From: Polaromonas sp.
GTDB taxonomy: Bacteria > Pseudomonadota > Gammaproteobacteria > Burkholderiales > Burkholderiaceae_C
DNA length: 33,938 bases
Direction of reading: 5' to 3'
NCBI GenBank assembly: GCA_021153985.1
Contig: JAJKJM010000010.1
Span: forward strand, 1-33,938
In this document: in pieces, positions 27,948-33,595 of the stretch
How positions within the stretch are numbered: position 1 is the first letter of the stretch
How the letters are laid out: every line of letters starts with the position of its first letter
The notes under the pieces: model-generated
The model's input: only the letters and a program-made list of their open reading frames with translations
Databases searched by the model: none
Told to the model about the DNA's origin: nothing
Translations under genes and position numbers: made by a program

Positions 27948-28565
27948 TCAGGCCAATTGGGCCAGCAGGGTTATGCCAAAAACGGCAACTGCGGCGCCGG
28001 CCGCGCGCGGCAGCCAGACATTGGCGTGACGCAAAGCCCAGCCTGCCGCCACGCCGCTTGCGTGCAGCAGCAGGGTGGCGGCCAGCATGCCGGCCACCAC
28101 CGGCAACGCATTCGCATCACCGGCCAGCTCATAACCGTGGGCCAGGCCATGGAAGACGGCAAACACGCCAACCAAAGCCGCGGCGGCGATGCCGGGGACG
28201 CGCCAGCGGGTCAGCACCAGCAAGCCGAGCACCAGCAAGGAGGCCGCGATCATCGGTTCGACGGCGGGCAGTTGAATGCCCTGCAGGCCCAGCAGTGCGC
28301 CGGCCAGCAGCATGGCGGCAAAACCGAGCGGCGCCCACAGCAGGTCGGGCCATGCCCGGCGCGCGGCCAGGGCGCTCCACAGCCCCACGGCGACCATGGC
28401 CGCCAGGTGGTCCAGGCCGGTCAATGGATGCATAAAGCCGGCGACGAAGGCGCTGGCGTGGCTGTGCGCCGCTTCGCCGGTTTCATGGTTAATATGGGCT
28501 CTAGCCAGCGTGGATATTGCGCCAGCAGCTATCAAAAAAAGAGCAGATTTGGTTCTGGTTTTCAT
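27948..28565 (-). CDS. ureJ: HupE/UreJ family nickel transporter-like protein
   Basis: Members of this family are inner-membrane proteins thought to move nickel or help hydrogenase and urease maturation. The 205-residue product has a signal peptide (about residues 1-23, ending ARA), a His-rich start of the mature protein (HINHETGEAAHSH) and the family signature HPLTGLDHLAAMVAVGLW (about residues 46-63). Some six hydrophobic helices follow, with a second conserved histidine motif FHGLAHG. Its place between ureA and ureB is a layout I recall from Comamonadaceae. The signal peptide is encoded by a dispersed repeat (28497-28544), which is unusual. Confidence 0.9.
   Translation of the reverse strand: MKTRTKSALFLIAAGAISTLARAHINHETGEAAHSHASAFVAGFMHPLTGLDHLAAMVAVGLWSALAARRAWPDLLWAPLGFAAMLLAGALLGLQGIQLPAVEPMIAASLLVLGLLVLTRWRVPGIAAAALVGVFAVFHGLAHGYELAGDANALPVVAGMLAATLLLHASGVAAGWALRHANVWLPRAAGAAVAVFGITLLAQLA
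28497..28544 (-). repeat. Dispersed repeat encoding the UreJ signal peptide
   Basis: On the minus strand this 48-base stretch has the repeat's outline: GCTnT...GATAGCTGCTGGCG, a variable middle with ATAT, and GGCTAGAGCC at the end. It matches the rph copy (20375-20422) at both ends. It spans codons for the hydrophobic core and C-region of the UreJ signal peptide (ALFLIAAGAISTLARA). Confidence 0.6.
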
Positions 28566-28583
28566 GGGCGATCTCGGTGGTGC

Positions 28584-28886
28584 TTAAACAATCGGCTGAT
28601 GCACGGTGACCAGCTTGGTGCCGTCGGGAAAGGTCGCTTCGACCTGGATGTCGGGGATCAGCTCGGGGATGCCGTCCATCACGTCGGCGCGCGTCAGCAC
28701 CGTGCGGCCTTCGCTCATGAGCTGGGCGACTGATTTGCCGTCGCGGGCGCCTTCCATGACGGCGGCGCTGATCAGCGCGACGGCTTCCGGGTAGTTCAGC
28801 TTCAGCCCTCGGGCCTGCCGCCGTTCGGCCAGCAGCGCAGCGGTGAAGATCAGCAGCTTGTCTTTTTCTCTCGGGGTCAATTCCAT
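28584..28886 (-). CDS. ureA: Urease subunit gamma
   Basis: This is the smallest structural subunit of urease. The 100-residue product opens [23 protein letters not shown] and contains [28 protein letters not shown] and [19 protein letters not shown]-like sequence, all diagnostic. The ATG at 28886 has GGAGACC just upstream. It is the first gene of the urease operon seen here. Upstream comes the bidirectional sigma-54-type promoter region and then the divergent sensor kinase gene. The accessory gene ureD, usually placed just before ureA, is absent. Confidence 0.98.
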
Positions 28887-28931
28887 GGGGTCTCCGGGGG
28901 GCGGCTGCGGCAGGGTGGGTAGGTGCCGGGG

Positions 28932-28947
28932 TGCAAGAATGGTGCCA
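28932..28947 (-). promoter_or_regulatory. Sigma-54 (-24/-12) promoter for the urease operon
   Basis: Read on the minus strand, the 16 bases TGGCAC-C-A-TTC-TTGCA match the sigma-54 consensus TGGCACG-rNNN-TTGCW at all defined positions except one (C for G at position 7). The GG and GC pairs have the exact 10-base spacing required. The predicted transcription start is near 28921, giving a leader of about 35 nt before the ureA ATG. Sigma-54 control is the classical route for nitrogen-regulated genes. Confidence 0.75.
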
Positions 28948-28949
28948 CA

Positions 28950-28969
28950 GGATGGTGCGAACGGCATCC
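28950..28969. promoter_or_regulatory. Inverted repeat between the two sigma-54 promoters
   Basis: GGATG and CATCC, separated by 10 bases, form a 20-bp dyad (GGATGGTGCG-AACGGCATCC) in the 34 bp between the divergent promoters. TGGTGC occurs here and again at 28940-28945. It recalls, but does not match, NtrC half-sites (GCAC...GGTGC). A role as activator or response-regulator site is inferred from position only. Confidence 0.35.
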
Positions 28970-28981
28970 ATTTTCCCGCTG

Positions 28982-28997
28982 TGGCATGGAATCTGCA
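28982..28997 (+). promoter_or_regulatory. Sigma-54 (-24/-12) promoter for the sensor kinase operon
   Basis: TGGCAT-GG-AAT-CTGCA matches the sigma-54 consensus except T for C at position 6 and C for T at position 12. The GG and GC doublets are exactly spaced. The predicted start is near 29008, about 33 nt before the ATG at 29041. It faces away from the equally good match on the opposite strand, with 34 bp between them. Confidence 0.62.
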
Positions 28998-29040
28998 CTC
29001 CATCAGGCTCCGCCTTATGACGTATTGACGCCCCATTCCC

Positions 29041-32000
29041 ATGGACACCCCGGCCGCTCCGCCCACCCTGCCTGCGCAGGCGGTGCCTCCGTGGGCGCCC
29101 GCGCCGCCGCCCTCCGGCGAAGCTGATGCGCCGGTGCAGCGCATCATCAAGGTCAGGCGCGACTACAACAGCTGGGTCGCCAGCGAGACCATGGAAGACT
29201 ACGCGTTGCGCTTTACGCCGCAGCGCTTTCGCAAGTGGTCCGAGTGGCGGGTGGCCAATACCGCATTCGGGGCAGCCTCTTTCCTGATCCTCGAGGCGGT
29301 CGGCGCGACCCTGCTGGTGAAGTACGGCTTCACGAATGCCTTCTGGGCCATCGTGGCCACGGGGCTGATCATTTTCATGGCCGGCCTGCCGATCAGCATT
29401 TATGCCGCGCGTTACGGCGTGGACATGGATTTGCTGACGCGCGGGGCCGGCTTCGGCTATATCGGCTCGACCCTCACCTCGCTGATCTACGCGTCCTTCA
29501 CCTTCATCTTTTTCGCGCTGGAGGCGGCGGTCATGGCCTATGCACTGGAGCTGGCGCTGGGCATTCCGCCAAGCTGGGGCTACCTGGTTTGCGCGCTGGT
29601 GGTCATACCGCTGGTGACCCATGGCGTGTCCGCGATATCGCGCCTGCAGGTCTGGACCCAACCTTTGTGGCTGGTGATGCTGGTCGTGCCCTTTGTGTTT
29701 GTCCTTCTGCGCGATCCTGGTGCTTTTTCGGGCGTTCTGCACTACGGCGGTGAGAAGGGCGTAGGCGATGAGTTTAATTTGCACCTGTTTGGTGCTGCTT
29801 TGACGGTAGGCATCGCGCTGATTACCCAGATGGGTGAGCAGGCTGACTATTTGCGCTTCATGCCGGTGCAGACCCCGGCCAATCGCTGGCGGTGGTGGGG
29901 TGGTGTGCTGGCAGGCGGGCCGGGATGGGTCCTGCTGGGTGTGGTGAAGATGCTGGGCGGGGCCTGCCTGGCTTACCTGGCCATTACCAACATGGTGCCG
30001 CTGGATCGGGCGGTGGACCCGAACCAGATGTACCTCGCGGCCTACGAATACGTGTTCCCGCATTATGGTGTGGCCGTGGCCGCCACCGCCCTGTTTGTGG
30101 TGGTGTCGCAGCTCAAGATCAACGTGACCAACGCCTATGCCGGCTCGCTGGCCTGGTCGAACTTTTTCTCACGCATTACGCACAGCCATCCGGGGCGCGT
30201 GGTCTGGGTCGTGTTCAACACGCTCATCGCCTTCATGCTGATGGAAATGAATGTGTTCCAGGCCTTGGGTGATGTGCTGGGCTTGTATTCGAACATCGCC
30301 ATCGCGTGGGTGATGGCCGTCGTGGCCGACCTGGTGGTTAACAAGCCACTGGGCCTGTCCCCGAAAGGCATCGAGTTCAAGCGGGCCCACCTCTATGACA
30401 TCAACCCGGTAGGTGTCGGGGCGATGGCGCTGGCATCCGTGCTGTCTGTCACCGCGCACCTGGGGCTGTACGGCGAAATGGCGCAAGCCTTCTCCGCGGT
30501 GATCGCGATGGGTACAGCCTTTGTGGCCGCGCCGCTGATTGCCTGGGCGACCAAGGGCCGTTACTACATCGCGCGCAGTCCGGTTTCGGCAACCGGGGAC
30601 GGCGCCTACAAGCGTTATGTCACTCAGCAGTGTGTCATTTGCGAACGCGCCTATGAGGGCCCGGACATGGCGCATTGCCCGGCCTACCAGGGCCCGATCT
30701 GTTCCTTGTGTTGCACGCTGGATGCGCGTTGCGGCGATTTGTGCAAGCCGCATGCGAGTCTCTCGGCCCAATGGTCGGGCGCACTGCGCTGGCTGCTGCC
30801 GCGCCGTACATGGCCCTACCTCGACACCGGGCTGGGCCACTTCCTGCTGCTGATGCTCATCATCGTGCCGCTGCTGGCCAGCGTGTTCGGCCTGTTGTAC
30901 CACCAGGAAATCAGCGCGCTGTCCGACCTGGTGCCGTCAGAGCCGGCCCTCAAGTCGGGCTTCCTGAAGGCCTATATGGCCTTGCTGGTGATTGCCGGCC
31001 TGGTCGCCTGGTGGCTGGTGCTTGCACACAAAAGCCGCCAGGTGGCGCAAGAAGAATCCAACCGCCAGACGCACCTGCTGATGCGTGAAATCGAGTCGCA
31101 CAGGCAAACCGACGAAGCGTTGCAACAGGCTCGGGTGGTGGCAGAGCAGGCCCGTCACCATGCCGACCAGGCCAACCAGGCCAAGAGCCGTTACATCAGC
31201 GCGATCAGCCATGAACTGCGCACGCCCCTCAACAGCATCCTGGGCTATGCACAACTCATGGGGGAAGACAGTTCCATACCGCCGCACCGCAAGCAGGCCG
31301 TCAGTGTCATCAAGCGCGGCGGTGAGCATTTGTTGTCGCTCATTGAGGGCACGCTCGATATCGCCCGCATCGAAGCCGGCAAACTCACCTTGAACGTCAA
31401 GCCCATGCATTTTGCGGATTGTGTGCATGAGATGGCTGGCATGTTTGAGCTGCAAGCGTCGGCAAAGGGTCTGGGTTTTCGCTTCGAGGCCAATGGCAAT
31501 TTGCCGGAACTGGTTCGTGCCGATGAAAAGCGCGTTCGGCAAATTCTCATCAACCTTCTGGGCAATGCCATCAAGTTCACCTCGCAAGGCCAGGTGACAT
31601 TCCGCTTGCGCCATGCACGCGAGATGGCCCACATCGATATTGAAGACACCGGCCCCGGCATGCGCGCTGAGGAACTGGCACAGATTTTTGAGCCTTTCGC
31701 CCGCGGCGCTACGGCAGGCCAAAGCGCGGAAGGCACACCAGGTGCGGGGTTGGGCCTCACGATCGCCAAGATGCTGACCGACTTGATGGGCGGCGAAATG
31801 ACGGTGGACAGCACGCCGGGAGAAGGTTCGGCGTTTCGCATCCGCTTGTTTTTACCCGAGGTGCACGTCGCCGCGGGCGCCGCAAAAGGCGCCGTCGGCA
31901 AGCCTGCAAGGCGCCAGCCCGTTGGCTATGAAGGCGCGCGCCGCAAGCTGATGATCGTGGATAACGAAGAGGCGGACCGGGAACTGCTGGTGCAGCTGCT

Positions 32001-32580
32001 GGAGCCCATGGGGTTCGAGCTTCGCACGGCCGCCAGCGGCCACGATTGTCTGGACCTGCTGGCAGCCGGCTACCAGCCCGATGTCATTTTCATGGATCTG
32101 GCTATGCCGGGTATTGATGGCTGGGAAACCTTGCGCCGTATACAGGGGTCCGGGCATACCGGCATTCACCTGGCGATTGTTTCTGCCAATGCGTTTGACA
32201 AGGGCATGGAGAACGATGCCGGCATCCTTACCGAGGACTTTATTCTCAAGCCCGTGCGGCACACTGAGCTGATCGACTGGCTGGAACGGCGTCTTGCCCT
32301 CAAATGGCGCCATCACCAGGCGCAAGAATTGGCCAGCCCGCCGGTCGAAGTGGCAGCGCCGCGCACCTTGCCCGATGCATCGCAGCTCGCGGCCTTGCTT
32401 GAAGTCGTCAACCTCGGATTTTATCGGGGCATCATGAATACCCTTGCGGAGATCGAACGGCAGCGGCCCGCCACCACGGTTTTTGTGAATGAGATGCGCG
32501 TGCTGGCGCGCCAGTTCCAGTTCGAGGCCATGGGGCGCCAGCTTGCCACCAAGGAGGGCAGCCATGAGCAGCGTGCTTGA
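29041..32580 (+). CDS. NCS1 transporter-hybrid histidine kinase fusion
   Basis: This is a 1179-residue membrane sensor. Residues about 40-510 resemble an NCS1 permease (purine, pyrimidine, allantoin or hydantoin symporters): [20 protein letters not shown] at the start, about 12 hydrophobic helices and [11 protein letters not shown] in the middle. Cys 531, 534, 546, 554, 557, 558, 564 and 568 form a compact eight-cysteine module. Two more helices follow (about 598-620 and 644-666), then a coiled coil. The HisKA box SHELRTP has His724. The HATPase has its N box (Asn842), DTGPGM and [13 protein letters not shown] receiver (about 968-1085) has Asp1019 and Lys1070. The last 80 residues are helical and lack an obvious HPt histidine. 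All catalytic residues are present. It is likely to sense a nitrogenous nucleobase-like compound. Whether it also transports is open. The response regulator gene overlaps its end. Confidence 0.88.
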
Positions 32581-33595
32581 AGGCGTGTCAAGGCTTGACC
32601 GGCGGCTGGACCGGACGCTGGACCGGGCCAACAGCGACATCGTGCTGATTGTTGACGACGTGCCCGACAACTTGTCGGTGCTGCATGATGCGCTGGATGA
32701 GTCGGGTTACACCGTCCTCGTTGCCACCAGTGGCGAGGCTGCGCTGCAACGCGCGTTGCAGGCGCTGCCCGACATCGTCCTGCTGGATGCCATGATGCCC
32801 GGGATGGATGGGTTTGAAGTCGCCAAGCGCCTGAAAGCCACGGCGGAGACGGCCCACATCCCAATCATCTTCATGACCGGCCTCACCGAAACAGAGTACC
32901 TCGTGGCTGCCCTCGAAGCCGGCGGTGTGGATTACGTGACCAAGCCGATCAAACCCAAAGAAGTCATGGCACGCATGGGTGTGCATTTGCAGGGCGCCCG
33001 CCGGGCCAGGCAGGAGGCGCGGCAGGCAGGGCAGGCACGCAATGCACTCGACGCTTTCGGCTACGCCAGCATCACCGTGCGGATGGGCGGCGCGGCCGAT
33101 GGCCGGTTGATCTGGCAAACGCCGCTGGCTCGCGACCTCCTGATGCGCTACTACGGTACATCGGCGCCGCAAACACCAGAGCCTGTTTTGAACTGGCTGC
33201 GCCGGCATCTGGCGCAAGCCGAGCGGCAGATTGAACCACCACGCCTGGCCGTGGAGTTTGGACCACGCCGTTTGACCTTCCGTTTGCACCAGGAAACCGG
33301 TGACGGCGATGGTGGCGGTGACTGGTTGATCGTGATGCGTGAGATTTCCGACGATGCGGTGGTGGAAGCAATGAGCCTGAGCTTCAAGCTGACCGCCCGT
33401 GAGGCGGAAGTCCTGTACTGGGTGGTTAAGGGAAAGACCAACCGAGACATCGGTGACATCCTGGGCTCCAGCCCGGCCACCGTCAAAAAGCATCTGGAAC
33501 GGGTGTATGCCAAGCTGGGCGTCGAAACCCGCACTGCGGCCGCAGGTATGGCGATGAACCGCATCAAGCAGCTTCATCCGCAGTTTGAAGGCTAG
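32564..33595 (+). CDS. LuxR-type two-component response regulator
   Basis: The 343-residue product has an N-terminal receiver (about residues 27-145) with the acidic pair in LIVDDVPD, phospho-acceptor Asp75 (LLDAMMPGMDG), the switch Thr in IFMTG and Lys in YVTKPIKPKE. A middle region of about 100 residues resembles a PAS-like module but is not firmly assignable. The C-terminal LuxR/FixJ helix-turn-helix (LTAREAEVLYWVVKGKTNRDIGDILGSSPATVKKHLERVYAKLGV) is complete. The ATG at 32564 is preceded by AAGGAGGG and overlaps the sensor kinase gene by 17 bases, implying translational coupling. It has no AAA+ domain, so it cannot itself open sigma-54 promoters. It is the likely partner of the fusion kinase. 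Confidence 0.92.
   Translation: MSSVLEGVSRLDRRLDRTLDRANSDIVLIVDDVPDNLSVLHDALDESGYTVLVATSGEAALQRALQALPDIVLLDAMMPGMDGFEVAKRLKATAETAHIPIIFMTGLTETEYLVAALEAGGVDYVTKPIKPKEVMARMGVHLQGARRARQEARQAGQARNALDAFGYASITVRMGGAADGRLIWQTPLARDLLMRYYGTSAPQTPEPVLNWLRRHLAQAERQIEPPRLAVEFGPRRLTFRLHQETGDGDGGGDWLIVMREISDDAVVEAMSLSFKLTAREAEVLYWVVKGKTNRDIGDILGSSPATVKKHLERVYAKLGVETRTAAAGMAMNRIKQLHPQFEG

Follow-up and report, generated by a model that had tools for sequence, protein, structure and literature searches.

Control of urease itself by sigma-54 and NtrC has been described before in Burkholderia (PMC5491218). In Burkholderia cenocepacia H111, mutation of ntrC lowers the expression of urease and urt genes (PMC5491218), urea use is RpoN-dependent in Paraburkholderia phymatum (PMC5748707), and urease is among the sigma-54 targets predicted for alpha- and beta-proteobacteria (PMC12316311). 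The locus described here would have in common with B. cenocepacia H111 and P. phymatum a urease under sigma-54/NtrC and a signal of nitrogen limitation, whereas the relevant passages of those two accounts mention no divergent sensor-kinase operon, regulator repeat or nested sigma-70 promoter (PMC5491218, PMC5748707).

The locus also resembles several systems in which a sensor kinase is fused to a transporter. One of them is CrbS/CrbR, which likewise consists of a transporter-fused hybrid kinase and a LuxR-type regulator (PMC5715377). Activation by CrbR depends on an imperfect inverted repeat that occupies −52 to −36, immediately ahead of an RpoD promoter, and to which we liken the repeat found on the ureA side in many relatives of the present locus; the CrbR motif is absent from enterobacteria, which are without CrbS/CrbR (PMC5715377). 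CrbS, however, has an SLC5 fold (SLC5-STAC) and is tied to acetate genes, whereas the kinase here has a modelled NCS1 fold, a Cys-rich linker, the company of urease and urea-transport genes, and overlapping sigma-54 promoters. RpuS/RpuR (PMC9100948) and CbrA/CbrB (PMC7096432, PMC13022988) are further transporter-fused sensor kinases tied to nutrient use. RpuS and CbrA are of the SLC5 type, RpuR needs a direct repeat (PMC9100948), and, unlike the LuxR-type regulator here, CbrB contains a domain that interacts with sigma-54 (PMC5715377). Ks-Amt5 also joins a transporter domain to a histidine kinase and senses a nitrogen compound (PMC5764959), but it has an Amt fold, belongs to an anammox bacterium and, in the account of PMC12918730, has a partner regulator not yet identified.

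Among the matches listed from the open PubMed Central literature, none described a urease–kinase divergon, a sensor kinase with an NCS1 fold or the repeat presented below. To our knowledge, urea sensing as distinct from nitrogen shortage is little described outside a few pathogens. We consider it likely that the locus combines two separable sigma-54 promoters with a nitrogen-controlled, probably urea-sensing transceptor circuit that has a regulator repeat of its own.

Sigma-54-type promoters between ureA and the kinase gene

The window, the whole stretch of 33,938 nucleotides that was analysed, is one contig of a 4.5-Mb draft genome (230 contigs, 88.9% complete), and the kinase encoded on it has its nearest named relatives in Polaromonas. 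A gap of 154 bp separates ureA (28584-28886, minus strand) from the kinase gene (29041-32580, plus strand). The features of the locus are as follows:

28584..28886, minus strand: ureA, urease gamma subunit (Pfam PF00547, E 6.5e-48; NCBIfam PRK13241).
28933..28947, minus strand: ureA sigma-54 −24/−12 promoter TGGCACCATTCTTGC, perfect core, predicted start at about 28921.
28982..28996, plus strand: kinase sigma-54 −24/−12 promoter TGGCATGGAATCTGC, 2 mismatches, predicted start at about 29008.
29009..29024, minus strand: inverted repeat TACGTCA-TA-AGGCGGA, proposed operator, matching TACGNCANNNGGCGNA with 0 mismatches.
29041..32580, plus strand: hybrid sensor kinase with NCS1-fold transporter domain (modelled), Cys-rich linker, HisKA, HATPase and receiver.
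30631..30744, plus strand: Cys-rich linker, kinase codons 531-568, with eight Cys invariant in 28 sequences (alignment A1).
32564..33595, plus strand: LuxR/NarL-type response regulator with receiver and GerE domains (Pfam Response_reg and GerE, frame from 32567).

ureA is the first gene of the urease operon and is followed by a HupE/UreJ-like gene, ureB, ureC, ureE, ureF and ureG. ureC and the HupE/UreJ-like gene were named through Pfam, and ureB, ureE and ureG through NCBIfam; NCBIfam gave no match for one further gene, which we take to be ureF. The ATG of the regulator gene at 32564, the frame of which was checked, overlaps the 3′ end of the kinase gene, and kinase and regulator are therefore likely to form a single operon. 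The genome contains rpoN (TIGR02395, 436.8 bits, above the cut-off) and ntrC (TIGR01818, above the cut-off), the latter adjoined by ntrB.

The sigma-54 consensus is TGGCAC-N5-TTGC, with the GG and GC doublets at fixed spacing. The initial annotation had placed one such site on each strand of the gap, and both are found there: the ureA-facing core is perfect, the only perfect match in the window, and the kinase-facing core has two differences (C to T, T to C) that leave GG and GC unaltered. The leaders of about 33-35 nt that had been proposed agree with the start codons at 28886 (minus) and 29041 (plus), the transcription starts being predicted. Genome-wide, 19 perfect cores were counted, and the reversed pattern yielded 4. 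The further claim, that two such sites exceed chance, did not hold by mismatch count in the window (53 matches against 60 expected, with no excess over chance or shuffles), which leaves the single-sequence support for the kinase-facing core poor; it was the comparison of relatives that bore the claim out.

For this comparison, 110 loci (80 named and 30 from the family sample) were assembled, of which 87 have ureA divergent from the kinase at no more than 600 bp. These reduce to 79 distinct gaps, and the 76 of at least 60 bp were used in the shuffle test (three of the 79 are shorter and were left out). A divergent pair of sites, each with no more than two mismatches and with GG and GC intact, is present in 67 of the 76 gaps, whereas 30 dinucleotide shuffles gave 0.1 on average and never more than 1; at no more than one mismatch each, the pair is present in 25/76 distinct gaps and in none of the shuffles. 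When both strands of the window were scored with a weight matrix built from 160 distinct non-Polaromonas 19-mers, the kinase core ranked first and the ureA core second, ranks that test conservation and are not independent evidence because the matrix is drawn from homologous sites. Both of these comparisons had been suggested with the initial annotation, and both came out in favour of the sites.

Among eight Polaromonas-type gaps, 15/15 columns of the ureA core, 14/15 of the kinase core and 12/16 of the inverted repeat are invariant, the last figure being partly built in because these gaps were picked for having the third block. The dyad at 28950-28969 that had been noted between the promoters is present as letters, but as only 2 of its 20 columns are invariant in the same gaps, poor conservation beside that of the cores, it was rejected as a conserved element, and a role for it is not supported. 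At the level of sequence comparison, two back-to-back sigma-54-type promoters between ureA and the kinase gene, kept in most sampled relatives, are confirmed.

The two promoters can also be followed apart from one another. Of 399 genomes, 222 bear the kinase, and the family sample comprises 110 of the best 113 of these (that of the window included), with G041, G057 and G249 outside the 110 and counted apart; here and below, the genomes compared are relatives and not independent samples. ureA is adjacent and divergent to the kinase in 90/110. In these 90 genomes, the ureA site is present in 85 (shuffle mean 11.2), the kinase site in 68 (shuffle mean 9.1) and the divergent pair in 62 (shuffle mean 0.4). 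In the three genomes counted apart, ureA is adjacent in 3/3, with the ureA site in three, the kinase site in two, the divergent pair in two and the repeat in none. The remaining 20 genomes of the sample, in which the kinase has no adjacent ureA, include two (G378, G338) whose kinase is truncated by the end of its contig, leaving 18 with a remote ureA. The kinase nevertheless has a sigma-54 site in 16 of these 20, against a shuffle mean of 3.0.

Conversely, in relatives of the same family that lack the kinase, a sigma-54 site lies within 300 bp of ureA in 36/40 (shuffle 4.8) and, in a further set, within 400 bp in 7/8. These 48 genomes (8 and 40) are drawn from the 92 that have ureA but lack a strong match to the kinase; G342, among the 40, matches it weakly (E 5.9e-4). 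Among the 18 kinase-bearing genomes with a remote ureA, 12 have a sigma-54 site within 400 bp of that gene and six have none within that distance. The occurrence of the kinase site away from ureA and of the ureA site without the kinase indicates that the two promoters are separable. By this comparison the kinase brings its own sigma-54 promoter, and the sites in kinase-less and remote genomes make sigma-54 control of ureA look ancestral though not universal.

An inverted repeat and a probable sigma-70 promoter

A third conserved element, missed in the initial annotation, emerged from k-mer and motif searches as a 7-2-7 inverted repeat, TACGNCA-N2-NGGCGNA. In the window, the copy extends from about +1 to +16 of the transcript predicted for the kinase gene. 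At no more than one mismatch, the repeat is found at 39/76 loci, where five shuffles gave between 1 and 3, and in a search that extended 500 bp to either side, 43 of 45 copies lie within the gap; in the family sample, it is found in 30 of the 90 genomes with an adjacent ureA, compared with 0.3 by shuffle. Its position follows a pattern. The edge of the repeat is 17-21 bp from the ureA core in 36/49 counts, in most genera a few nucleotides on the upstream side of the −24 element, and 20-21, 31 or 42 bp separate the repeat from the kinase core in 26/49. In eight counts, all from Polaromonas-type gaps, the repeat is instead located 26-28 bp beyond the beginning of the kinase core, over the predicted kinase transcript start. 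The 7-2-7 form is kept across several genera although the letters vary, and the repeat is absent from several Polaromonas-type gaps (for example, L009, L013, L091 and L094).

Where the kinase gene is remote from ureA, the repeat occurs at ureA in 4/18 genomes, as well as at the named loci L055 and L070, and at none of the 20 kinases without an adjacent ureA. It is likewise absent from ureA of kinase-less genomes (0/40 and 0/8). The scan covered the gap plus 90 bp for an adjacent ureA, 400 bp for a remote one and 450 or 400 bp for kinase-less genomes, so that its absence from the last was sought over at least equal DNA in nearly all cases. Overall, the repeat is present at ureA in 34/108 kinase-bearing genomes (34/111 with the three extra) and in 0/48 kinase-less ones (Fisher 1e-6, the genomes being related), and is missing or unrecognizable in 74 of the 108. 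In the genomes sampled, the repeat therefore travels with ureA and is seen there solely when the kinase is present. As a genome-wide regulon motif it was rejected: at no more than one mismatch, the genome of the window has 93 matches against 255 for the reversed control, and this lack of over-representation suggests few targets. The 7-2-7 form is that bound by NarL-type regulators. Together with the co-occurrence, it suggests that the repeat is most likely the operator of the LuxR-type regulator encoded in the kinase operon.

A −10 hexamer with 5-6 of the 6 letters of TATAAT begins 3-5 bases after the GC of the ureA core in 22/38 loci with the repeat beside that core, compared with 8/96 loci without the repeat there and 0/36 kinase-less ones (pooled Fisher 2e-11). 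With a laxer box of four letters of six, the contrast is weaker (31/38, 15/96 and 17/36, respectively). Of 35 strict boxes within 65 bp of the repeat centre on the ureA side, 24 lie at 30-31 bp, one at 32 bp, eight at 41-42 bp and two elsewhere, so that the repeat falls at about −42, or one turn beyond that, relative to a sigma-70 start. A site near −42 is the place of a directly contacting activator. On the kinase-facing side, no sigma-70 −10 box was found near the repeat, and in the lineage of the window no −10 box overlaps the ureA sigma-54 core; −10-like hexamers (CATAAT/AATAAT) 15-20 bp past GC also occur in 11 loci without the repeat. These positions make a sigma-70 promoter nested on the ureA sigma-54 promoter probable in many relatives. 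Because the repeat is placed differently in the window and in other genera, the activator model rests on the relatives and not on the organism of the window.

The sensor kinase and a paralogous pair

Residues 1-660 of the kinase matched no Pfam family at E values up to 10 and no PDB sequence at E values up to 1. An AlphaFold2 model of this region (pLDDT 74, pTM 0.72) most resembles the NCS1 transporters CodB and Mhp1, and among the structural matches listed SLC5-type folds score below these two. On this model the transporter domain is of NCS1 fold, and the match in fold without one in sequence means that it is not filed as a classical NCS1 member. Between the transporter and kinase parts, the invariant cysteines stand at residues 531, 534, 546, 554, 557, 558, 564 and 568. 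This stretch takes the position of the STAC linker, where Pfam gave no match and model confidence is low, and may serve as a metal, iron–sulphur or redox input.

The kinase and ureA are strongly associated: among 399 genomes, 211 have both, six the kinase only, 92 ureA only and 90 neither (p 3e-30), in a table that enters five weak-match genomes as kinase-less and takes incomplete genomes and kinship as they stand. This co-occurrence makes urea or a near relative the likeliest ligand, and from gene company alone we would say that the kinase probably senses urea or a closely related compound.

The same genome has a paralogous kinase–regulator pair (L164, on C97; 1-6000) transcribed divergently from a urtA-like gene; TACGTCAATCAACGTA lies in the gap that separates the two. 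In a relative with the paralogous pair (L163), the adjoining genes are named urtA and urtB by NCBIfam. The regulator of the window and the paralogous regulator have the recognition region TV-KHLE in common. The gap beside the paralogous pair also has a −10-like hexamer at about equal distance from TACGTCAATCAACGTA and a sigma-54-like core facing the paralogous kinase. At a further locus (L161), a gene for an aliphatic amidase lies between the paralogous pair and the urt side, and L158 looks alike. Comparable gene company is known from annotation only: in Ectopseudomonas guguanensis G3, urtABCDE lies beside a hybrid kinase and a LuxR-type regulator (PMC13296017), and in Dechloromonas aromatica a kinase/receiver pair lies near urtA (PMC2907700).

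Proposed control of the two operons

From the sites, their conservation and their linkage, for which comparison of sequences is the basis, we infer the parts played by NtrC, by a urea signal and by the binder of the repeat, and whether that binder activates or represses. Under nitrogen limitation, sigma-54 polymerase, most likely activated by NtrC, would transcribe the urease operon to the left and the kinase–regulator operon to the right. The NCS1-type domain would probably bind urea or a close relative, and the hybrid kinase would relay the signal to the LuxR-type response regulator, which most likely binds the inverted repeat. In many relatives, this repeat would act from just upstream of the ureA −24 element, about 42 bp before a predicted sigma-70 start whose −10 overlaps the sigma-54 promoter. 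With the repeat and the nested −10 at ureA, urease would receive a nitrogen input through sigma-54 and a urea input through the regulator and sigma-70 on one stretch of DNA. In the Polaromonas-type lineage, with its perfect ureA core, lack of a −10 box and repeat over the predicted kinase transcript start, the simplest role for the regulator would be repression of its own operon.

A more specific version of this scheme is put forward tentatively, as possible rather than probable. The kinase would belong to a so far undescribed family of transceptor kinases with an NCS1 fold and a Cys linker that senses urea; it would control urease through an operator and a sigma-70 −10 wrapped around the sigma-54 promoter, the sensor operon itself would be sigma-54-driven, and in Polaromonas the operator would have moved to the start of the sensor transcript, so that urease activation gives way to feedback on the sensor. 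If true, a urease-tied transceptor would be carried by 217/399 sampled genomes of one beta-proteobacterial family (those with a strong kinase match), and in many of them the ureA promoter would amount to two sigma factors reading two signals on one 60 bp. The loss, movement and re-use of the repeat between genera would show the rewiring of a promoter step by step.

NtrC is the best candidate for the activator of the window promoters. The NtrC-type site has the consensus TGCACC-N5-GGTGCA. The joint activation by NtrC proposed in the initial annotation is partly supported by the presence of ntrC in the genome and by the enrichment of sites in relatives, but positions 28400-29600 of the window hold no NtrC-like site better than three mismatches, and so none within two. 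At that threshold, such sites occur in 17/90 ureA–kinase gaps (1.8 by shuffle), at 8/20 remote kinases (0.1) and at 15/40 kinase-less ureA genes (1.7), with a smaller excess over 500-bp flanks (19/76 against 8 to 13). These counts are partly inflated, as the −12 element can supply the first half of the pattern and many kinase-side copies overlap it. At seven loci (L107, L179, L193, L197, L112, L231 and L240), NtrC-like repeats start 12 bp into the kinase core and overlap its −12 element. This is an odd place for an enhancer; such a repeat could serve ureA while blocking the kinase promoter, or half of it could be −12 letters.

The same enrichment would also fit a simpler arrangement, in which NtrC fires both operons from a plain sigma-54 divergon and the repeat is the site of an unrelated regulator or a functionless leftover. 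The sigma-54 cores are the most conserved parts of the gap, ntrC is present, and urease and urt both drop in the B. cenocepacia mutant (PMC5491218), all of which this arrangement would accommodate. We nonetheless judge it unlikely, since the repeat keeps its form while its letters vary, holds its 17-21 bp from the ureA site in most counts, stands at a fixed distance from a −10 box and is seen at ureA solely with the kinase–regulator pair.

A second alternative departs from the spacing of the cores, the offset between which ranges from 14 to 227 bp and is 49 in the window. In 13/108 pairs, the offset is 14-16 bp and the 15-bp cores touch or nearly do so. With the footprint that a holoenzyme occupies, abutting cores would exclude two holoenzymes, and the promoters would compete as a switch between urease and sensor production. 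We consider this improbable: most pairs, that of the window among them, leave room for both. Eight loci (L036, L043, L048, L052, L056, L063, L065 and L075) have the cores back to back at an offset of 15-16 bp, which should block double holoenzyme binding. Helical phasing of the two promoters is not claimed, a Rayleigh test on unique offsets giving p of about 0.05 at best.

A third alternative, in which the kinase-facing core matches by chance and a sigma-70 promoter serves the kinase gene, is very hard to credit: the two mismatches of this core are a level as frequent as chance in the window, and 22/90 sampled gaps have no kinase-facing site, but the core is nearly invariant in the eight chosen Polaromonas-type gaps, heads the matrix ranking and has counterparts at most kinases away from ureA. 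The circuit of two separable sigma-54 promoters and a probably urea-sensing transceptor thus remains the preferred reading.

In the genome of the window, one further perfect sigma-54 core (C113:10722-10736) was observed within an ntrB-like gene (828-1934 of L165, which is C113:9000-12577; NCBIfam NR(II)). It faces ntrC and lies about 290 bp before it.
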